14,090 nt of DNA, taken from an uncultured Archangium sp. Lineage in GTDB: Bacteria > Myxococcota > Myxococcia > Myxococcales > Myxococcaceae. This document shows positions 1,687-14,090 of the stretch, piece by piece. The translations under genes were made by a program, and so were the position numbers. The notes beneath the pieces are model-generated. The model worked only from the letters and a program-made list of their open reading frames with translations, was not told the origin of the DNA and searched no databases. Position 1 is the stretch's first letter, and each line of letters begins with the position of its first letter. The DNA is taken from contig CAMLFP010000114.1 in the NCBI GenBank assembly GCA_946479335.1, positions 1 to 14,090 on the forward strand, written 5' to 3'.

Positions 1687-3054
<1,368 letters not shown>

Positions 3055-3246: not shown

Positions 3247-3756
3247 TTACTTCCGCACGAGCGCGTAGAGCGTCTCGGTGCGCAGAAAGAGGAACGCGGT
3301 GTTGTCACCGAGGGTGATGACGTTGCCCTCTGCGAGCGCGACCTCGCCGGTGATGACGTTGCCGTTGACCAGCGTGCCGTTGGTGGAGCCGAGGTCCTTG
3401 AGCCAGGCGGCGCGCTTCCAGCCGTCCCACCGCACCTCTGCGTGACGGCCCGACACCGAGGCGTCGAAGAGCTGCACGTCGGCGCCCTCCGCGCGGCCCA
3501 GCACCAGCGCGCCTTCAGGCGCTTCACGCCCGAGGGGAACGACGAGGCCGTCGTCGAGGCCGAGCATCAACGAGAGCGCGTGGCGCGCGAGCTTCGGGCC
3601 GCCGAGGTCGGTCTCGACGGTGCGGTAGAGGTGCGGGCGCACCGCGGGCTTCTCGACCTCTCTCTGGACCAGCGCGAGCGGGCCGACCTCCTGAAGCATG
3701 GCGTCGAGCGGGTACGTGGCCAACCGCTTGAGCGCTTCGATGGAGGTGGTGATCAC
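3247..3756 (-). CDS. FHA-domain protein
   Basis: A 169-aa cytoplasmic protein, probably a phosphothreonine reader. The forkhead-associated domain spans about 70-157 and keeps the binding-site residues: GR 87-88, S102 with GRH 103-105, and STNGT 124-128. The first ~65 residues are helical in character and I do not recognise them. It starts with GTG at 3756, which overlaps the TGA of the 87-aa gene by 4 nt (GTGA), so the two are very likely translationally coupled. It is the last gene of the run 188-aa protein, FtsH-like protease, 87-aa protein, FHA. The intact binding motif suggests that Thr phosphorylation, perhaps by the Ser/Thr kinase encoded further downstream, recruits partners to the protease. 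That link is inference. Confidence 0.93.
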   Translation of the reverse strand: MITTSIEALKRLATYPLDAMLQEVGPLALVQREVEKPAVRPHLYRTVETDLGGPKLARHALSLMLGLDDGLVVPLGREAPEGALVLGRAEGADVQLFDASVSGRHAEVRWDGWKRAAWLKDLGSTNGTLVNGNVITGEVALAEGNVITLGDNTAFLFLRTETLYALVRK

Positions 3757-4016
3757 GTTTTGTTCCCCTGCGCCTCGCGCTGCGGCGCCGCCTCTTCCGT
3801 GGGCTTCGACGCCGCGCCGTGGCCCTCGCGCTCGATGGTGATGGTGCCCAGCTCCTCGGGCTTCACCGCGCCGCCGGCCAGCAGCGCCTCGACGATCTTC
3901 TTGTGCTGCTCCTCGTGCTCCATGGGCAGCGTGTCGCCGTCGCTGTCGAGCTTCACCCAGACGTTCTTCTTCTTCGTGGTGGGGTCGATGTCGAGGCGGA
4001 GAATGAGCGTGGCCAT
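3753..4016 (-). CDS. Small acidic-core protein of the FtsH-like cluster
   Basis: An 87-aa protein with no function I can assign. Residues 1-65 look like a small alpha/beta domain: a strand (ATLILRLDI), a Lys-rich turn (TKKKNVWVKLD), a helix around 35-48, and a last strand (TITIE). The tail from 66 is hydrophilic and probably disordered. There is no signal peptide or membrane segment. AGGAG at 4026-4030, inside the end of the protease gene, is 9 nt before the ATG and supports this start; the gap to the protease stop is 5 nt. Its end overlaps the FHA gene start by 4 nt. From memory it resembles small accessory proteins of FtsH-type ternary systems. That is low-certainty recall. Its coding status is supported by the tight spacing and coupling. 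Confidence 0.85.
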   Translation of the reverse strand: MATLILRLDIDPTTKKKNVWVKLDSDGDTLPMEHEEQHKKIVEALLAGGAVKPEELGTITIEREGHGAASKPTEEAAPQREAQGNKT

Positions 4017-4021
4017 GGTGT

Positions 4022-6109
4022 TCAGCTCCTCGCCGGGAGAATCGACGCGAGGGCCTCCTGGTCCAACACCTTCTTTTCGAGCAGCAGGTCGCGCAGCGTG
4101 GCGATGAGCGCCTTGTGCTCGGTGACCAGCTCGCGGGCGCGCGCGCGCTGGGCCTCCAGCACCGACTTCACGGCGTCTTCCATCGACTTGAGCAGCGCCT
4201 CCGACGCGGGGTCGTCATGCGCGGCCTCGATGCGCCGCACGCCGACCGTCTCGCCGCCCATGCCGAACTGCTCGACCAGCGCGCGGGCGATCTCCGTGGC
4301 GCGCGCGATGTCGGCGCCGCTGCCGATGGAGAGGTCTTCGAAGAAGAGCAGCTCCGCCTCGCGGCCGCCGTAGAGCACGCAGATCTGATCCAACAACTGG
4401 CCGCGGGTGACGACGTACTTGTGCGCCGGGTCGGAGTAGCTGACGAAGCCCAGCGCGCCGGCGAGGTCTCCGCGGATGCTGATGCGGTCGATGGGCGGCG
4501 TGTGCGGGCAGAACATCGCGGTGACCGCGTGCCCGGCCTCGTGCGTGGCGACCACCTTCTCTTCCTTCGGCGTCAGCGCCGGGCGCTCGGCCCATGACGA
4601 GAGCGCCTTCTCGACGTCTTCAATCTCCAGCGGGCCCACGCGCGCGTCACGCAGCCGCGCCCGCGCGAGCGCCCGACACAGCGCCTGCAGATGGTCGCCG
4701 GAGTAGCGCGACGCCTGGCCCTCAACGAGGTCGGCGGTGCGCTTCACCGCGTAGTCGAGCGCGCGCGGCGAGAGCTCGAGGCCCAGCTTCTGGTCATAGA
4801 TGCCGAGAATCGCGCGGCGGTCTTCCGCGTTGGGGAAGGGGATGTGGAGGTGGAACTCGAAGCGCCCCGGCCGCAGCAGCGCGGGGTCGAGCGACTCCAC
4901 GAAGTTGGTGGTGCCGACCACGAAGACCAGCTCGTCCTTGCGGAAGCCGTCCATCTCCGTGAGCAGCTGGTTCACCATCGAATGTTCGACGCCGCTGCCC
5001 TGGTAGCTGCCGCGCGCGGTGGCGAACGAGTCGAGCTCGTCGAACACGATGATGGCGGGCGCCGCCTGCCGCGCGCGCATGAAGACCTGGCGGAGATTTT
5101 CTTCCGACTCGCCGACCCACTTCGACTTGAGCTCCGGCCCGGAGACGACGGTGACCGCCGCGCCCAGCGCCGTGGCCATCGCCTTGGCGAAGAGCGTCTT
5201 GCCGGTGCCGGGCGGGCCCCAGAAGATCATGCCCCGCGGAATCAGCCCTTCGATGCGCTTCATCGCGCCTTCGTCGTTGGCGCGGTCCTTCAGCGCCAAC
5301 ACGTCGAGGATCTCCTTGTTGAGCCGCTCCTTCACCTTCGCGTACCCGCCGATGTCGCGCTGCAGGTCGACGTCGGGGAGCGTGAGCTGCCCCACCAGCG
5401 TCGCCTGCCGCAGCTGTCGGTACGCGGGCGAGGGGTCGGTCGGGTAGTCCTCCCCGGTGAGCGACGAGAGCAACCGCCGCAGCCGCACCGCGTTCACGCC
5501 GGAGACGCTCTTGTAGAGCTGGTACGGCTTGAGCGAGCGCTCCGACGAGAGCTTGCGGCTCTCCTTCTGCGTCACCAGCGCGCCGAGGCGCTCGCGCGGC
5601 ACGCCCAGCAACGTCTCGCGCCGGGGGAAGAGGTTCTCGATGACCTTCGGGAGCGGAAACGACGGGTCCTTGAAGGCGAGGAAGACCAGCTCCGGGTTCT
5701 CGTACAGCAGCGGGATGACCTCGCGCGCGTCGGACGTGAGCCCGCCCAGCGAGGTCGTCAGCAGATCGAGGTGCGGCAACACGAGGATGCGCTGGTCGAC
5801 CGCGCCGCGCACCGCCTCGCGCAGGGAGAAGACGATGGTGCCGACGAGGCCCGTGCCCGGAGGCGCGTCAGGCAGCCCCTGCACCGGCCGGCCATCGAGG
5901 TAGAGGAACTGCTTCCCCTCCGGCTTGAGGCGATCGCGCACGCACTTGTAGAGGTACGGCGTCAGCTCCTTCTCGGCCTCGACCAGCACCGGCAACCCGC
6001 GGCGCAGCGACTCGGTGATGCGCGCGAGCTCCTGCGGGTAGGCGGCTTCGACGGCCGCGAACGCCGAGAGGTCTTTCGGCAGCTCCTCTTCTGCGATGGA
6101 GAGCGCCAC
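4022..6109 (-). CDS. Cytosolic FtsH-like tandem-AAA zinc metalloprotease
   Basis: A 695-aa ATP-dependent protease. The AAA domain (about 250-505) has Walker A GPPGTGKT 298-305, Walker B IIVFDELD with D357/E358, and arginine fingers R413/R416 in LLRPGRFEF. The M41 peptidase domain (about 512-690) has HEAGH 523-527 as two zinc ligands and catalytic Glu, and D600 in SGADIARATE as the likely third ligand. Two things differ from FtsH. There are no N-terminal membrane helices. The pore-loop region reads SKWVGESEENLR, as in Cdc48/p97-type ATPases, not the FVGxGA of FtsH. Residues about 30-185 look like a degenerate AAA domain (a Walker-B-like RILVLPHLDLL, a sensor-like strand LVFLAF) without a P-loop, recalling Ycf46-like ATPases. 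The GTG start lies 3 nt after the 188-aa gene; no strong ribosome site is seen. It is probably a soluble regulated unfoldase-protease; substrate unknown. Confidence 0.95.
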   Translation of the reverse strand: MALSIAEEELPKDLSAFAAVEAAYPQELARITESLRRGLPVLVEAEKELTPYLYKCVRDRLKPEGKQFLYLDGRPVQGLPDAPPGTGLVGTIVFSLREAVRGAVDQRILVLPHLDLLTTSLGGLTSDAREVIPLLYENPELVFLAFKDPSFPLPKVIENLFPRRETLLGVPRERLGALVTQKESRKLSSERSLKPYQLYKSVSGVNAVRLRRLLSSLTGEDYPTDPSPAYRQLRQATLVGQLTLPDVDLQRDIGGYAKVKERLNKEILDVLALKDRANDEGAMKRIEGLIPRGMIFWGPPGTGKTLFAKAMATALGAAVTVVSGPELKSKWVGESEENLRQVFMRARQAAPAIIVFDELDSFATARGSYQGSGVEHSMVNQLLTEMDGFRKDELVFVVGTTNFVESLDPALLRPGRFEFHLHIPFPNAEDRRAILGIYDQKLGLELSPRALDYAVKRTADLVEGQASRYSGDHLQALCRALARARLRDARVGPLEIEDVEKALSSWAERPALTPKEEKVVATHEAGHAVTAMFCPHTPPIDRISIRGDLAGALGFVSYSDPAHKYVVTRGQLLDQICVLYGGREAELLFFEDLSIGSGADIARATEIARALVEQFGMGGETVGVRRIEAAHDDPASEALLKSMEDAVKSVLEAQRARARELVTEHKALIATLRDLLLEKKVLDQEALASILPARS

Positions 6110-6112
6110 GGC

Positions 6113-6679
6113 TTACACGCGGACCTTGATGGTGAGGCTGCCGTTGGGCTCCTCGTGGATTTCCTGCACCTCGCCCAGCTCGCGGGCGCGCTGCTTGAGC
6201 GCCTCGGCCGTGACGCGGTTGACCGCGCCGTCGAGTTCCTCGCGGAGGTCCTTGAGGTGCCCTTCCAGCTTCGCCGTCACCTCGCGCTGCAGGGCGCTCT
6301 CATGGGCGGCCGCGTCGCGCTCCAGCGACTCGCGCGCCGTCTTTCTCAGGTGGGCCTCCTTGGCCTCCACCCCGCCCGCGTCGCGGTCCACCACCGTGGT
6401 GCGATGGGCCTCCAAATCGACCTCTTTGTGCCCTTCGGCGCTCACCGTCACCTGCCCGTCGTCGAGGCCGACCTCCACCGTCACCCCCCCACCTTCGTCG
6501 CGCCTGGCGGTCTGCCCAGCGCGTGTAAAGCCACGTGCCACCAGCTCGCTGGCCAGGAGCTCCCGCATGCGCTCTTTTTCCAAAATCGGTAGTAATTCCA
6601 ACGATGAAGAGACGCCGTCGTCCACCTGGACATGGCGGGAGAGGCTCTCTTTCACACTGATTCGGTAGGCGCGAGACAT
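6113..6679 (-). CDS. Coiled-coil protein heading the FtsH-like operon (X1-like)
   Basis: A 188-aa soluble protein. The N-terminal domain (1-90) opens with MSRAYRISVKESLSRHV and includes short beta segments (VTVEVGL, QVTVSAE). A highly charged, probably coiled-coil helical region runs about 103-172, and a final strand SLTIKVRV ends the protein. I chose the ATG at 6679 because the strong conserved-looking opening begins there; the frame stays open further upstream but runs into the divergent promoter region. The stop is 3 nt from the protease GTG, so it heads the operon of protease, 87-aa and FHA genes. The N-terminus resembles what I remember of the 'FtsH ternary system domain X1' family. A profile search is needed to confirm. 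It is probably an adaptor or partner of the protease (inference). Confidence 0.9.
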   Translation of the reverse strand: MSRAYRISVKESLSRHVQVDDGVSSSLELLPILEKERMRELLASELVARGFTRAGQTARRDEGGGVTVEVGLDDGQVTVSAEGHKEVDLEAHRTTVVDRDAGGVEAKEAHLRKTARESLERDAAAHESALQREVTAKLEGHLKDLREELDGAVNRVTAEALKQRARELGEVQEIHEEPNGSLTIKVRV

Positions 6680-6795
6680 GGCGGTGCCCCAGACGACCAC
6701 ACGGGAAAAAGAACTGCAAAATGCCTTTGCGTGATCCACGCTGACAACAACGAGACCGGTCGATTCGATAACCGGTGCAAGGAGATACACACACA
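6680..6795. promoter_or_regulatory. Divergent intergenic region with two dyads
   Basis: These 116 bp separate the 188-aa gene (minus) from the 395-aa gene (plus) and should hold both promoters. Visible elements: a perfect dyad GCGTG-ATC-CACGC at 6729-6741; a pair of ACCGGT sites at 6755-6760 and 6771-6776 around CGATTCGATA; and a weak GG-N10-GC sigma54-like match on the plus strand (GG 6704-6705, GC 6716-6717). CTGACA at 6741-6746 resembles a -35 but has no good -10. I cannot fix either promoter. Confidence 0.45.
6779..6784 (+). promoter_or_regulatory. Ribosome binding site AAGGAG
   Basis: AAGGAG lies 11 nt before the ATG at 6796. It decides that start over the in-frame GTG at 6775, which lies upstream of the site itself. 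Confidence 0.8.
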
Positions 6796-7983
6796 ATGGC
6801 CCGCATCAGCGACTCTGGTTCCCGCCCCGCTTCGACCACTCAGCCCAAGGTGACGACGCGCATCACCAAGCCGAAGACGACCACCAAGACCACCTCCACC
6901 AAGAAGTCGGAGAGCTCGTGGGATGCCGGCAGCAAGAAGTACTCGGCGCACGCCGAGGGCTCCTACAAGAAGGACACGAAGTACTCGTCGGGCAAGACCA
7001 CCACGCGTGACGCCGACATCTCCAAGTACACCGACAAGTTCGGCAAGGGCGCCGACCTGCTGACCAAGGGCCTCAAGGCGCTGGGCATCGACAAGACGTT
7101 CGAAGGCGGCTTCGACAACGTCAAGAAGGACACGCTCTACAAGGGCGACAACGTCAACGTCACCGCGAAGCACGGCACCACCGGCTCCGGCAGCGTCACC
7201 GTGAACGGCGACGGCGTCACCGCGCAGGGCAAGGTCGGCGCGGAGGCCAGCGTCACCGCCAAGGCGCACGGCGAAGTCACCGGCAAGTACGGCTCGGCGA
7301 ACTACACCGCGACGGCGACGGCGCAGGCCCACGCCACGGCGGAAGGCACCGCGAAGCTCGACTCCAACGGCCTGACCGCCACCGCGAAGATTGGCGCCAG
7401 CGCCAGCGTGCAGGTGTCGGCCACCGGCCACGCCGAGACGCCCTCGGTGACCATCGGCGGCCAGCAGTTCAACGTCGCGGCCGACGGCAAGGTGACCGCG
7501 AAGGCCGAAGTGAAGGCCGAGGCCTCGGGCACGGCGACCATCACCCGCAATCCCCCGACCGCCATCCTCCGTGGCGAGGCCGGTGCGTCGGCGGTGGCGA
7601 AGGCCGAAGCCGAAGGCACCATCTCCGCGGGCCCGTTCTCGGTGCACGCGTCGGGCTACGCCTCGGCGGGCGCTGAAGCGAAGGCCTCGGGCGTCATCGG
7701 CTACGAAGACGGCAAGCTGAAGATCGGCGGCAGCCTCGGTGCGGCGCTCGGCGTCGGCCTCGGCGGCAGCGTCGACGTGGAGATCGACGTCGCGGCCATC
7801 GAGCACGCGGCGGTCGGCGTCGCGAAGGACCTCGCGGACCAGAACCACGACGGCAAGATCGGCCTCGATGACGTGGCGGCCGGCGCGAAGAACATCGTCT
7901 CCGGCGCGGCCCACGCGGCGGAGGCCGTCTCGAGCGGCGTCAGCAACGCGGCCAAGAGCGTCGCGCACTTCTTCGGCTGGTAA
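6796..7983 (+). CDS. Repetitive beta-rich protein with EF-hand-like loop; function unknown
   Basis: A 395-aa protein and the only plus-strand gene here. Residues 1-70 are Thr/Lys/Ser-rich and probably disordered (TKPKTTTKTTSTKKSES). Residues about 115-330 alternate small apolar with polar or charged residues (GTATIT, AKAEVKAEASG, SVTVNGDG) and are rich in Ala, Thr, Val, Gly and Lys, as expected of a beta-solenoid or fibre-like fold. DQNHDGKIGLDD (348-359) fits a 12-residue EF-hand/dockerin Ca loop, followed by an Ala-rich helix and the end HFFGW. It has no cysteine, signal peptide or membrane helix. Composition is unlike its neighbours, although GC content stays high. It lies between two minus-strand clusters and ends at a strong terminator. 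It might be a secreted or structural protein, or an effector without an obvious toxin domain. I do not recognise the family. Confidence 0.9.
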   Translation: MARISDSGSRPASTTQPKVTTRITKPKTTTKTTSTKKSESSWDAGSKKYSAHAEGSYKKDTKYSSGKTTTRDADISKYTDKFGKGADLLTKGLKALGIDKTFEGGFDNVKKDTLYKGDNVNVTAKHGTTGSGSVTVNGDGVTAQGKVGAEASVTAKAHGEVTGKYGSANYTATATAQAHATAEGTAKLDSNGLTATAKIGASASVQVSATGHAETPSVTIGGQQFNVAADGKVTAKAEVKAEASGTATITRNPPTAILRGEAGASAVAKAEAEGTISAGPFSVHASGYASAGAEAKASGVIGYEDGKLKIGGSLGAALGVGLGGSVDVEIDVAAIEHAAVGVAKDLADQNHDGKIGLDDVAAGAKNIVSGAAHAAEAVSSGVSNAAKSVAHFFGW

Positions 7984-8009
7984 GCCGCGAACAGCCTCGA
8001 AGTCACCGG

Positions 8010-8045
8010 CCGCTCCCCGCGCTTCGTGGGGAGCGGTTTCGTTTT
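8010..8045 (+). terminator. Rho-independent terminator
   Basis: CCGCTCCCC (8010-8018) pairs perfectly with GGGGAGCGG (8028-8036) around a 9-nt loop and is followed by TTTCGTTTT. It starts about 26 nt after the stop of the 395-aa gene. On the minus strand the same hairpin sits just past the stop of the 326-aa gene but lacks a T-run, so it is efficient in the plus direction only. Confidence 0.88.
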
Positions 8046-8046
8046 G

Positions 8047-9027
8047 TCAGCCGATGGCGTCGAGCTGCGCGACGAGCGCCGCCGCCTGCGCGAAGCCGCG
8101 CTCTCCCAGCACTTCCCACTCGCGGACCAGCCGCTGCGCCACGGCGTAGCCGTCGTCGATGAAGCGCACGGTGCGGTGCTGCGTGTCCCACTCCCGGAGT
8201 CGCGCCAGGGCACGCCACGTCGCGCCAGCCAGCCTGCGCGCTTCGACGCGCTCCCGCAGCGGCGCCTCGGAGGAGAGCGAGCGCGTGAGCTCGTCAGCGG
8301 TCCGCGGTCGATGAAAGAACTGCGTCGCCATGTCGATGAGGAAGCCGGCCAGCTCACGCTGCGGCTCGGCGGCGTCGAGGAAGGCCTTGAGCACCAGGCC
8401 CTGAGCGCGCCCGATGCGCGCGAGCTGGTCGACCGCGCGTACGTCACGCTTCTGCCGCTCCGCCGAGAGCCACGCGCGCGCCAACAGCGAACGCATGCTC
8501 AGCAGCCACGGCGAGAGCGTCTCGAGCGCGAAGGCCGGCGCCGCGTCGAGGGCCACCTCCTGGGAGAGCAGCGCGGCGTGCGCCAACACCGTCAACGGCC
8601 AGCGGCGGAACTCGGCCTGCCTCGCGAGCGCCGCCTCGAAGCCGGTGCCGCGCAGTCGATGCAGCAGCGTCGCGACGAGGAAGTCCTCCGCGGGTGACGG
8701 CGGGGCGGGCAACGCCAGCGGCCGCACCTCGAGCTCCGCCAACGGCGTGGCCAACATCCACTGCAGCAGCCGAATGGTGTTGGGGCCGAAGTGCAACGGC
8801 GGGGTTGGCCACGGCGTGCGCGCCCAGCCTCCGTACCGGAGCAGCCCGAGCGCGGTGCCGCGCGACAGCGTGTCGGTCAGCAGCTCGCGCGCTGCGGGGC
8901 CCAGCAGCGCCGGTGCCTGGGTAGGCATCACCAGCAGGCGCGTCGCGTCGACGGGAGGGATGACGCCGACCACCACGCGCGCGAGCGTGAGCAGGTTGCC
9001 TTCGGCGCGGGTCACGGTGGCGGTCAT
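8047..9027 (-). CDS. Unrecognised helical protein coupled to the radical SAM gene
   Basis: A 326-aa soluble protein, Leu/Ala/Arg-rich and predicted mostly helical. The first ~50 residues look alpha/beta (LLTLARVVVGVIPP, TRLLVMP). I see no catalytic motif, cysteine cluster, signal peptide or membrane helix. The ATG at 9027 overlaps the TGA of the radical SAM gene (ATGA). That fixes the start over an upstream in-frame codon and implies translational coupling. It is the last gene of the calpain-radical SAM run and meets the plus-strand 395-aa gene head-on. Its position beside the FtsH-like cluster, and a faint recall of large accessory proteins in FtsH ternary systems, suggest a partner or scaffold role. 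Function is not assignable from sequence alone. Confidence 0.9.
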   Translation of the reverse strand: MTATVTRAEGNLLTLARVVVGVIPPVDATRLLVMPTQAPALLGPAARELLTDTLSRGTALGLLRYGGWARTPWPTPPLHFGPNTIRLLQWMLATPLAELEVRPLALPAPPSPAEDFLVATLLHRLRGTGFEAALARQAEFRRWPLTVLAHAALLSQEVALDAAPAFALETLSPWLLSMRSLLARAWLSAERQKRDVRAVDQLARIGRAQGLVLKAFLDAAEPQRELAGFLIDMATQFFHRPRTADELTRSLSSEAPLRERVEARRLAGATWRALARLREWDTQHRTVRFIDDGYAVAQRLVREWEVLGERGFAQAAALVAQLDAIG

Positions 9028-9599
9028 CGGCGGCGCAGGGCATCGGCCGCGGCGGGCCAACCGTTGATGGTGAGCGCACCGTTCTCGAAGCGCAGCTCCA
9101 CCGTGTTGGGCGCGTTGAAGTCGCTGGGCGAATAGCGCGAGGTGAAGAAGTGCAGCGTCTGGTTGGTGGAGCCGATCCACCTCCGCTGCGTGTCGGGCCG
9201 GGCCGCGTCGAAGCGCCCGTCGACGAGCAGGTCGATGGCCGCGAGCGCGCGCGCCACGTGCGGAGACGGCAGCGCGCGGAGCTCCGCGAGGGTGTAGCCG
9301 GTGAAGACCATCACGCTGCGGCCGGCCTCGTGGAGCCGCGTACAGAGCTCGGCGAGCGCCTCGGGTTGCTCGAAGGGTTCACCACCGAGCACCGAGAGGC
9401 CCTCGATGCCGGGCACCGCCAACACGCGCTGCACCAGCGCCTCGACGTCGTGCAGCGCCCCGCCCTTGTCAGCGGAGAACATCTCCGGGTTGCAGCAGCC
9501 GGGGCACCGCAGCGAGCAGCCCTGCACCCACAGCGCGAAGCGGCGGCCGGGGCCTTCAGCTTCGGTGTCTTCGACGATCTGCGCGACGCGGAGCTGCAT
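9024..9599 (-). CDS. NrdG-like radical SAM / 4Fe-4S single-cluster protein
   Basis: A 191-aa protein of the class that activates anaerobic ribonucleotide reductase and other glycyl radical enzymes. The radical SAM motif CxxxCxxC is at C28, C32 and C35 (GCSLRCPGC), with an extra C36. The SAM-binding GGEP is at 72-75. The segment VDGRF followed by RRWIGSTNQ (about 127-147) matches the NrdG-like C-terminal signature. The last ~25 residues (VELRFENGALTINGW) form a small extra beta tail. No nrdD or other glycyl radical enzyme is in the window. The gene starts 3 nt after the calpain-like gene and overlaps the 326-aa gene by 4 nt, so its job is probably tied to those proteins. It may modify or activate a protein of the cluster (inference). 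Confidence 0.92.
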   Translation of the reverse strand: MQLRVAQIVEDTEAEGPGRRFALWVQGCSLRCPGCCNPEMFSADKGGALHDVEALVQRVLAVPGIEGLSVLGGEPFEQPEALAELCTRLHEAGRSVMVFTGYTLAELRALPSPHVARALAAIDLLVDGRFDAARPDTQRRWIGSTNQTLHFFTSRYSPSDFNAPNTVELRFENGALTINGWPAAADALRRR

Positions 9600-9602
9600 G
9601 CG

Positions 9603-10640
9603 TCACTTCGTCGTGAACTCCACCGCGGCGTAGGCGGTGAGGAACTTCTCGATGGGCAGCTCGAAGATGCCGTCGTCTTTCCCGTCGACGCCGGGCTCCT
9701 TCTCTCCCCAGGGGTTGCGCAGCTGCACCAGCTTCTGGCCATTCTTCTCGGAGACGCCGAGCAGCGTGTACGCGTGGTCGGCGACGATGCCCTGCACGCC
9801 GGGCTCCCAGCTCTTGGAGCACGCCACCACCGCGCCGCCGTTCTTCACCGCGTCGCTGATGCGCTTGAAGGTCTCGGCGGGGTCCGACGCGGAGGTCACG
9901 GGGAGGAAGTCGGTCTTCTGCCCGGTGAGCGCCTCGAGCGCGGTGGCGCCCATGCCGCCCTCGATGGCGTCGTAGCCGCCGCGCCACTGCGCGTAGGCCT
10001 TCTCGAAGATCTGCGGCCAGAGCTCCTTCGTCTCGCGCGCGGCGGCGTACTCGAGGCGCCCGTGCTGGTTGGCGAAGGAGCCATCGATGGTGACCTCCAC
10101 CGGTTTGGGCTTCGAGTCTTTCGGCCCGCGCTCGTGGAAGGTGACGGTGTACGTGCCGTCGCGGTTGGTGCGCACCGCGTTGGCGAGGCGCTGCGGGTCG
10201 GTCTTCGCGACCGCGGCGAGCGCGGAGATGAAGTAGCAGTCGCCGACCTGGCCCTGGAGCGGGTCATCGGCGTTGAAGCCGTTGACCGACACCTGCCCCG
10301 GCACCTTGTCGTACGAGACGCGCCCGGTCTTCGCGCTGTCGGCGGTCAGCTTCGGCTGCGTCTTGCGGCGCTCGTCACCGTCGTCTCCGGCGATCTTCGC
10401 CAGCGCGTGCATCTCGCCCTGCACGAACGCGAGGAGCTTGGCGCGCGCCGCCGGGTCGAACTTGCGTGGCGTGCGGTCGGCGAACGCCGAAAGGTAGAAG
10501 GCCTCGACCTCGCTGAAGTGCCCGTTGTGCGCGTCTTTGACGAGGGCGTCGACTTCCTTCGTCGTCACCTTGCCGTCGGCCATCGTCTTGTCGAGGCGAG
10601 CCATGTAGCGCTCGCCCTCACGCATGATCTTGGAGGACAT
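9603..10640 (-). CDS. Calpain-like (family C2) cysteine protease
   Basis: A 345-aa protein with a complete calpain-type catalytic triad: C135 in LQGQVGDCYFISALAAVA, H289 in VADHAYTLLGV and N309 in LRNPWGEKE. The intervening ELWPQIFEKAYAQW (207-219) also matches the calpain core. The core spans about 125-343. Residues 1-100 form a helical, charged N-terminal region (MADGKVTTKEVDALV) that may be a regulatory or pro-segment. There is no signal peptide, so it appears cytoplasmic unless exported by another route. The ATG at 10640 has no good ribosome site; Met6 and Met13 are alternatives. It is followed 3 nt later by the radical SAM gene. Bacterial calpains are sparse and mostly uncharacterised; substrate unknown. 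Ca-dependence cannot be read from the sequence. Confidence 0.93.
   Translation of the reverse strand: MSSKIMREGERYMARLDKTMADGKVTTKEVDALVKDAHNGHFSEVEAFYLSAFADRTPRKFDPAARAKLLAFVQGEMHALAKIAGDDGDERRKTQPKLTADSAKTGRVSYDKVPGQVSVNGFNADDPLQGQVGDCYFISALAAVAKTDPQRLANAVRTNRDGTYTVTFHERGPKDSKPKPVEVTIDGSFANQHGRLEYAAARETKELWPQIFEKAYAQWRGGYDAIEGGMGATALEALTGQKTDFLPVTSASDPAETFKRISDAVKNGGAVVACSKSWEPGVQGIVADHAYTLLGVSEKNGQKLVQLRNPWGEKEPGVDGKDDGIFELPIEKFLTAYAAVEFTTK

Positions 10641-13201: not shown

Positions 13202-13205
<4 letters not shown>
13166..13205. promoter_or_regulatory. Tandem 17-bp dyads GTGAA-N7-TTCAC
   Basis: Two perfect-arm dyads lie at 13166-13182 and 13189-13205, with centres 23 bp apart. They are about 77 and 100 bp upstream of the predicted sigma54 start of the lipoprotein-pfkA operon, the usual distance for an enhancer-binding protein. 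The second overlaps the stop codon of the sigma54 activator gene. The first could alternatively be a weak terminator stem for that gene. Confidence 0.6.

Positions 13206-14090
<885 letters not shown>

Follow-up and report, generated by a model that had tools for sequence, protein, structure and literature searches.

A locus in an Archangium-like myxobacterium that is very probably the upstream half of an FtsH ternary system of the simple type

The 14,090-nucleotide stretch analysed here (the window; contig CAMLFP010000114.1 of an uncultured Archangium sp.) contains a locus built around an FtsH-like protease, in which two tightly packed minus-strand gene clusters flank a single divergent gene. 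In the direction of minus-strand transcription the genes encode a calpain-family protease, a radical SAM enzyme and the X6 protein, followed, past the divergent plus-strand gene, by the X5 protein, the FtsH-like protease, the X3-analog (X3a) and an FHA protein. All eight open reading frames (ORFs) of interest were found at the positions given in an earlier note on this DNA. Within the X5 cluster the FHA and X3a genes overlap by 4 nucleotides, while gaps of 5 and 3 nucleotides separate X3a from FtsH and FtsH from X5, respectively; within the X6 cluster the X6 and radical SAM genes overlap by 4 nucleotides and the radical SAM gene is 3 nucleotides from that of the calpain. The divergent gene lies 116 nucleotides from X5 and 63 nucleotides from X6. 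The earlier description of two clusters with 3–5-nucleotide gaps or 4-nucleotide overlaps around a divergent gene is confirmed at every junction, and motif and Pfam searches likewise bear out the M41 HEAGH site, the calpain Cys-His-Asn residues, the intact FHA domain and the CxxxCxxC motif of the radical SAM enzyme.

The three previously unassigned proteins point to the identity of the locus. The 188-residue X5 (6113–6679, minus strand; PF20003, 2.4e-50 on the longer reading 6113–6796), the 326-residue X6 (8047–9027, minus strand; PF20004, 8.5e-35 on the longer reading 8047–9180) and the 87-residue X3a (3753–4016, minus strand; PF20002, 1.7e-25), which bears a charged C-terminal tail in the alignment, match fvmX5, fvmX6 and fvmX3-analog, Pfam families that take their name from the FtsH ternary system. 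All three matches are above cut-off, as are those to the AAA, M41, FHA, Fer4_12/Radical_SAM and Peptidase_C2 families. The X-type partners that the earlier note had suggested are thereby identified, and of the four proteins singled out for a profile search only the 395-residue product of the divergent gene has no Pfam match. As described in the 2020 paper by Kaur, Burroughs, Iyer and Aravind (PMC7159879), the simple type of the system shares with the window an FtsH-type AAA ATPase, the system-named X families and a radical SAM enzyme encoded as a standalone gene, which is a named part of that type and is present as such in the window. What the window contains is very probably the upstream half of an FtsH ternary system of the simple type, belonging to an Archangium-like myxobacterium. 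The earlier guess has now been tested, and the locus is mostly an ordinary member of a known system, the counterpart half of which is kept nearby by its relatives.

The gene neighbourhood is conserved well beyond the window, as the earlier note had proposed to check. Scanning of the X5 alignment against genome contigs yielded 48 loci, found in Myxococcota, Planctomycetota, and one metagenome-assembled genome each labelled Bacteroidales and Gammaproteobacteria, with FtsH present at 44, X3a at 38, X6 at 35 and the radical SAM gene at 31 of them. The counts are lower bounds, many loci ending at contig ends, although one locus (L043) lacks FtsH on a contig that continues. Since the core gene set recurs in both Myxococcota and Planctomycetota, the association of the genes exceeds chance. 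The closest relatives are metagenome-assembled genomes labelled Archangium, with X5 70% identical and, in locus L009, FtsH 85% identical. One alignment of X5 proteins comprised the window and 17 of 120 proteins among the matches listed; a second comprised the window, 32 of the 48 loci and 11 of 120 proteins among the matches listed, with L048 excluded for its stops; that of X6 comprised the window and 32 of the 35 X6-bearing loci. The X5 model, predicted with a local distance difference test score (pLDDT) of 85.3 and a template modelling score (pTM) of 0.65, consists of long strands and a 65-residue helix. As a separate observation, the planctomycete genome G200 carries an X5-radical SAM pair (L156 8551–9710) with no FtsH within the 19 kb read, and X5 is therefore not strictly tied to FtsH; the same genome also has an AAA-DUF1257 operon.

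The FtsH-like protein (695 residues; 4022–6109, minus strand) consists of an AAA domain (PF00004, 1.9e-40) and an M41 protease domain (PF01434, 7.2e-35), with the P-loop GPPGTGKT at residue 298, the Walker B motif IIVFDELD at 353 and HEAGH at 523. While the AAA and M41 domains with HEAGH are common to housekeeping FtsH, the window protein scores 271 bits against a model cut-off of 600, has an N-terminal region of its own of about 250 residues and reaches a peak 19-residue hydropathy of 1.52. Because no 19-residue stretch exceeds this value, we infer that the protease forms a soluble ring. Its best relatives in the PDB by score are VCP/Cdc48-type ATPases, which match the AAA domain, and AFG3L2 and FtsH align over both AAA and M41.

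Neither a MoxR nor a vWA protein is encoded within the 14 kb window, as the earlier note stated, which raised the question of a distinct variant that would lack both. In relatives, X7 and the vWA of the system (ivWA) were each found in 21 of the 22 carrier genomes. Among 195 Myxococcota genomes, X5 scored over the cut-off in 52 and ivWA in 50, all of the latter also carrying X5, so that only G382 and G008 have X5 without ivWA over the cut-off. The two genes share a contig in 31 of the 50 genomes at distances of 7.9–26.9 kb, with a median of about 8 kb; the widest are seen in the Archangium-like G005, G009 and G017, and the Archangium-like relatives of the window span about 25 kb from X5 to the vWA gene. 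At L017, L019, L022, L024 and the planctomycete loci that reach far enough, X3a is directly followed by a large protein that belongs to a single cluster throughout and is X7 in the scanned L017 and L026; in L010 X7 stands further off. At L017, X3a and X7 are followed by a MoxR of the bpMoxR family and an ivWA with a helical N-terminus, and G009 has X7, MoxR and ivWA downstream, 16–27 kb from X5, the helical N-terminus there scoring 21.4, under the cut-off of 27. The bpMoxR model is unspecific, matching 12 of 14 controls, and MoxR was therefore examined at its position beside X7; all five relatives read have the P-loop GPPGTAKS, and in the six genomes computed MoxR lies 6–20 kb from X5. A GXXXTAKS P-loop is called frequent in the MoxR proteins of these systems in the 2020 paper, and such a MoxR together with a vWA protein with a helical N-terminus is a further likeness between the window's relatives and the simple type described there (PMC7159879).

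The two loci that most resemble the window, L005 and L009, contain both calpain and FHA genes, and their contigs also carry X7, MoxR and ivWA. Furthermore, the NtrC-type response regulator of the window (1687–3054, minus strand; so named from its own sequence) has a relative of 67% identity in G017 (L079 15842–17206), located between FHA and X7 and beside a phosphoglucose isomerase. Because of this placement, X7 and MoxR would be expected outside the window, past position 1 as the cluster is transcribed, and the vWA gene most probably follows them in the same region. The absence of MoxR and vWA is true of the window, then, but has little meaning given that relatives carry both further on, and it appears best explained as an effect of the window edge. 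The alternative of a distinct variant without MoxR and vWA, in which FtsH and calpain would form a two-protease cascade gated by the FHA protein with the fibre-like product of the divergent gene as a substrate, could draw on that absence, on the two intact protease sites and on the calpain gene adjoining the radical SAM gene in five further genomes. It is nevertheless very improbable in view of the near-constant X7 and ivWA of the carriers, the ivWA of 50 of the 52 X5-bearing Myxococcota genomes, the complete sets at L005 and L009, and a calpain ortholog that lies away from the radical SAM gene in 7 of 12 genomes.

Several observations weigh against the assignment to an FtsH ternary system. 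X5 is absent from 47 of the 96 genomes of one family, and the FtsH machine is therefore dispensable. Among the Myxococcota, four genomes without X5 show ivWA matches below the cut-off, and 19 of the 50 genomes that carry both X5 and ivWA have the two on separate contigs. On the complete chromosome of Limnoglobus roseus (G020) ivWA and X5 are some 4.05 Mb apart (C1:1059578 and C1:5107556), despite X7 and a MoxR being near X5, and in G021 MoxR and ivWA are on a different contig from X5 and X7. The 2020 paper describes for the class an inactive AAA domain that precedes the active one (PMC7159879), while residues 1–248 of the window FtsH match none of three AAA profiles in a profile comparison (from which the incomplete L122 was excluded), and the motif search gave a single P-loop. 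Finally, a literature search of titles and abstract starts found no experiment on any FtsH ternary system, and the phrase itself was found in PMC7159879 only.

The radical SAM enzyme (191 residues; 9024–9599, minus strand; PF13353 (Fer4_12), 2.8e-31) has the motifs CSLRCPGC at residue 28 and GGEP at 72 and resembles NrdG in its Fer4_12 family, its CxxxCxxC motif and an identity of 28–38% to 25 phage proteins among the matches listed. The NrdG identity was nevertheless rejected, as the NrdD profile PF13597, which matches 6 of 14 controls, matches none of the 22 carrier genomes, the score of 99.2 bits is below the NrdG model cut-off of 126.1, and the enzyme falls in a separate clade. In a tree of 48 rows, five NrdG proteins (four from phages and one from a plasmid, all beside an annotated NrdD) are split from the other 43 with a support of 99/98. 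The rows consisted of 28 fvm gene calls including that of the window, one from G022, three DUF1257-linked and three other planctomycete proteins, eight AAA-linked plasmid proteins and the five NrdG; repeats (L125–L127, L129–L132), the weak L134, L136 and L138, unreadable stretches and the unannotated plasmid stretches L152, L153 and L155 were omitted. The plasmid rows derive from 143 plasmid records matching the enzyme, of which 12 stretches were examined, eight being AAA-linked, one beside NrdD and three unannotated. The 43 non-NrdG rows comprise 29 fvm enzymes, six from DUF1257/DUF2997 operons, four from PIN-AAA operons and four ungrouped. No single branch sets the fvm rows apart (2 changes), and the enzymes of AAA-DUF2997 operons on Rhodococcus and Paenarthrobacter plasmids stand beside the myxobacterial fvm rows with a modest support of 85/79; several end branches are long, long-branch joins are possible and the order within the clade is unsure.

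Judged by sequence, the enzyme belongs with those of the AAA-DUF1257-DUF2997 and PIN-AAA operons and not with NrdG, which removes a misleading NrdG-like label and places it with AAA ATPases in several operon types. The Paenibacillus operon reads AAA-DUF1257-DUF2997-radical SAM, those of Rhodococcus and Paenarthrobacter AAA-hypothetical-DUF2997-HhH-radical SAM, and the Calothrix genes encode a TPR protein, the radical SAM enzyme, a hypothetical protein and an AAA protein. A PIN-hypothetical-AAA-radical SAM order is found on Polaromonas, Moellerella, Leisingera and Acinetobacter plasmids (L140, L141, L145, L150), two of the four typed as conjugative and one of them near ArdA and an integrase. 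The AAA protein of the PIN operon at L140 belongs to the AAA_2/Cdc48 subfamily by Pfam, and the PADLOC matches to the PIN-operon AAA proteins are partial.

The operons containing DUF1257 resemble the window in combining an AAA ATPase with a small alpha/beta partner, whose strands and helices follow a similar order, and with another partner that is very small; some also encode a radical SAM enzyme of this kind. DUF1257 was detected in 24 of 294 Planctomycetota genomes and in none of the 22 carrier genomes. At 25 DUF1257 loci taken with 1.5-kb flanks, an AAA protein resembling the AAA domain of the window FtsH was present in 21 and a radical SAM enzyme of 36–41% identity in three; the DUF1257 alignments used 22 of these loci, excluding L093 (a near-copy), L102 (two frames) and L107 (cut). 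A clear difference is that these AAA proteins are without M41, by Pfam for the Paenibacillus operon and by length for nine planctomycete proteins (one incomplete), which end after the AAA lid and leave no room for it. The predicted X5 fold runs strand, helix, four strands, the 65-residue helix and two strands, and that of DUF1257 (pLDDT 91.8) strand, helix, six short strands, two helices and two strands, so that in the models the two orders appear alike, not identical.

A second difference is that X5 and DUF1257 are not joined by any significant sequence score. X5 does not match PF06868 even at an E of up to 1, and comparison of the two with hhalign gave E of 0.035 and 0.042 with a probability under 2%, which is non-significant and speaks against homology, although few permuted decoys scored as high (0 and 3 of 60 in local, 2 and 3 of 60 in global comparisons). 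When the X5 profile was run over 5364 ORFs of the other loci, the four true X5 stretches ranked first and were followed by two actinobacterial proteins at the DUF1257 position and one DUF1257 (same gene, two loci) at 8.2, 8.1 and 6.9 bits (E 0.7–2), a ranking that is suggestive only. A link between X3a and DUF2997 was also considered and rejected, the profile-profile score of 10.4 being non-significant against permuted decoys, which scored as high in 19 of 60 local and 53 of 60 global comparisons. The actinobacterial protein in question, of 141 residues (L142 4531–4956, L151 3576–4001), is encoded in AAA-DUF2997-radical SAM plasmid operons; it is weak against both the X5 and the DUF1257 profiles, and that of L142 has no Pfam match above cut-off.

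We take the AAA proteins of the DUF1257 operons to be Ycf46-like. One can conceive of the FtsH ternary core (FtsH, X5, X3a and radical SAM) as a protease-armed branch of a wider AAA class, in which an ATPase would be paired with an adaptor resembling DUF1257, a very small protein bearing a tail and a radical SAM enzyme of its own; this enzyme would tag clients or mature a part of the complex and not serve nucleotide metabolism. Such a class, which on present evidence we consider unlikely, would include the plasmid PIN-AAA operons and the bacterial AAA-DUF1257-DUF2997 operons, and hence cyanobacterial and plastid Ycf35 and presumably Ycf46; the literature search found no description of an AAA, adaptor and radical SAM class of this kind. 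If the link were true, work on the myxobacterial FtsH system would bear on proteins encoded by plastids and cyanobacteria, and vice versa; we know of no established role for these Ycf35/Ycf46-type proteins. DUF1257 corresponds to Ycf35, which in Synechocystis is encoded in a DUF2997-ycf35(DUF1257)-fed7 cluster (PMC4284462).

Relative to the published system the window adds an FHA gene, a calpain gene and the divergent fibre-like gene, found at 6, 2 and 1 of the 48 loci, respectively, and thus limited to certain lineages; calpain is not mentioned by name in the main text of PMC7159879. The FHA protein (169 residues; 3247–3756, minus strand; PF00498, 7.1e-18) has the motifs GR, SVSGRH and NGTLVNG, and the six loci with relatives comprise five records labelled Archangium and one labelled Myxococcales. 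In all six it comes next or next but one after X3a, in four of them behind an 85-residue gene. The product of this gene (L005 12946–13203 and ten relatives), which has no Pfam match, follows X3a in 11 Myxococcota loci and is not encoded in the window. The calpain-family protease (345 residues; 9603–10640, minus strand; PF00648, 1.9e-33) has its catalytic Cys-His-Asn residues within the Peptidase_C2 domain as GDCYF (Cys135), His289 and RNPWG at 308. The earlier view of the calpain as part of the module is not supported, a close ortholog (at least 53% identity, full length) being present in 12 of 20 Myxococcota genomes and adjoining the radical SAM gene in only five (G005, G009, G010, G011, G017) and not in the other seven, three of which were read over 14 kb. 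Because at L006 a phosphofructokinase gene directly precedes the radical SAM gene with no calpain between them, the window calpain, which lies between these two genes, was seemingly inserted there.

The fibre-like Ala/Gly/Thr-rich repetitive protein (395 residues; 6796–7983, plus strand) contains one EF-hand-like loop, DQNHDGKIGLDD, at 355 in the numbering of a 402-residue reading, and some of its 132 database relatives have an EF-hand (PF00036). A place for it in the module is likewise not supported, since relatives occur in 15 of 20 genomes and none is on an X5-bearing contig. The slot between X6 and X5 is variable: in place of the fibre-like gene L005 has a gene with a DPBB domain, L004 and L009 are empty, L011 has a partial fibre-like relative before X5, and a divergent two-gene cassette (c12+c11) precedes X5 in L002, L003, L006, L007, L008 and L015, with X6 visible on its far side only in L003, L006 and L008. 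The cassette encodes proteins of about 360 and 132 residues (L003 8399–9879), which in L003 have no Pfam match above cut-off, and no slot gene scanned matched a toxin family in Pfam. Given how few loci carry them, the FHA, calpain and fibre-like genes might all stand beside the FtsH system by chance and be unconnected with it, which we regard as possible, if less than probable; the 4-nucleotide overlap of FHA with X3a and its position at the six related loci speak against this, as do the 3 nucleotides between calpain and radical SAM in the window and their adjacency in five other genomes. FHA and calpain would otherwise be later add-ons, which may connect the system with signalling by Ser/Thr kinases and with a second step of proteolysis.

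For the core system we propose a mechanism in which the soluble FtsH-like unfoldase-protease ring would work with X5 as a long-helix adaptor and with X3a as a small tail-bearing protein, while the MoxR-vWA pair would assemble or gate the machine. The radical SAM enzyme, encoded with X6, would modify a small protein of the complex, the X3a tail being the candidate substrate, and together the components would degrade or remodel a chosen client upon a trigger. The gene identities, the motifs, the conserved neighbourhood, the co-occurrence with vWA and the absence of NrdD are observed, while we infer the complex, the client, the trigger and the enzyme substrate alike, and the scheme is put forward tentatively. 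The authors of the 2020 paper propose a large complex whose assembly is controlled and consider that the radical SAM enzyme of the simple type likely modifies a peptide from another gene (PMC7159879).

The role of the system as a conflict system is a published proposal. The distribution of X5 is unlike that of mobile defence genes, since there is a single X5 match per genome in 52 of the 53 Myxococcota genomes with a match, presence within one family (49 of 96 genomes) is seemingly block-wise, as grouped from list order, and X5 has no match among 72,556 plasmid and 50,697 phage records, collections that may hold few myxobacterial records. With the same caveat, FtsH has no match at 1e-60 in the plasmid collection; at 0.01 the X proteins match none of the families in PADLOC, and FtsH matches the PADLOC AAA families IetA and TRIP13 over its AAA domain. 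Together these observations favour a housekeeping or developmental machine for regulated proteolysis over a defence system, and we would call that reading nearly an even proposition. Against it stand the conflict-type effectors described for related MoxR-vWA systems, the changing occupant of the X6–X5 slot between lineages and the plasmid-borne, in part conjugative, PIN-AAA operons with a related radical SAM enzyme. An anti-phage or kin-conflict system, as proposed in the 2020 paper, with the slot encoding the effector, would agree with the fibre-like gene, its partial relative, the cassette and the DPBB protein that are found there in different loci. The distribution of X5 argues the other way, as do the lack of toxin families among the scanned slot genes and the fibre-like relatives away from X5 contigs, and the literature search found no direct test; we hold this role to be conceivable and somewhat doubtful.

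The locus is flanked by a Ser/Thr kinase and the NtrC-type regulator on one side, both named as read, and by the phosphofructokinase (PF00365) on the other. Regulators read as being of the sigma-54 type are present at both ends of the window, at 13202–14089 and 1687–3054.

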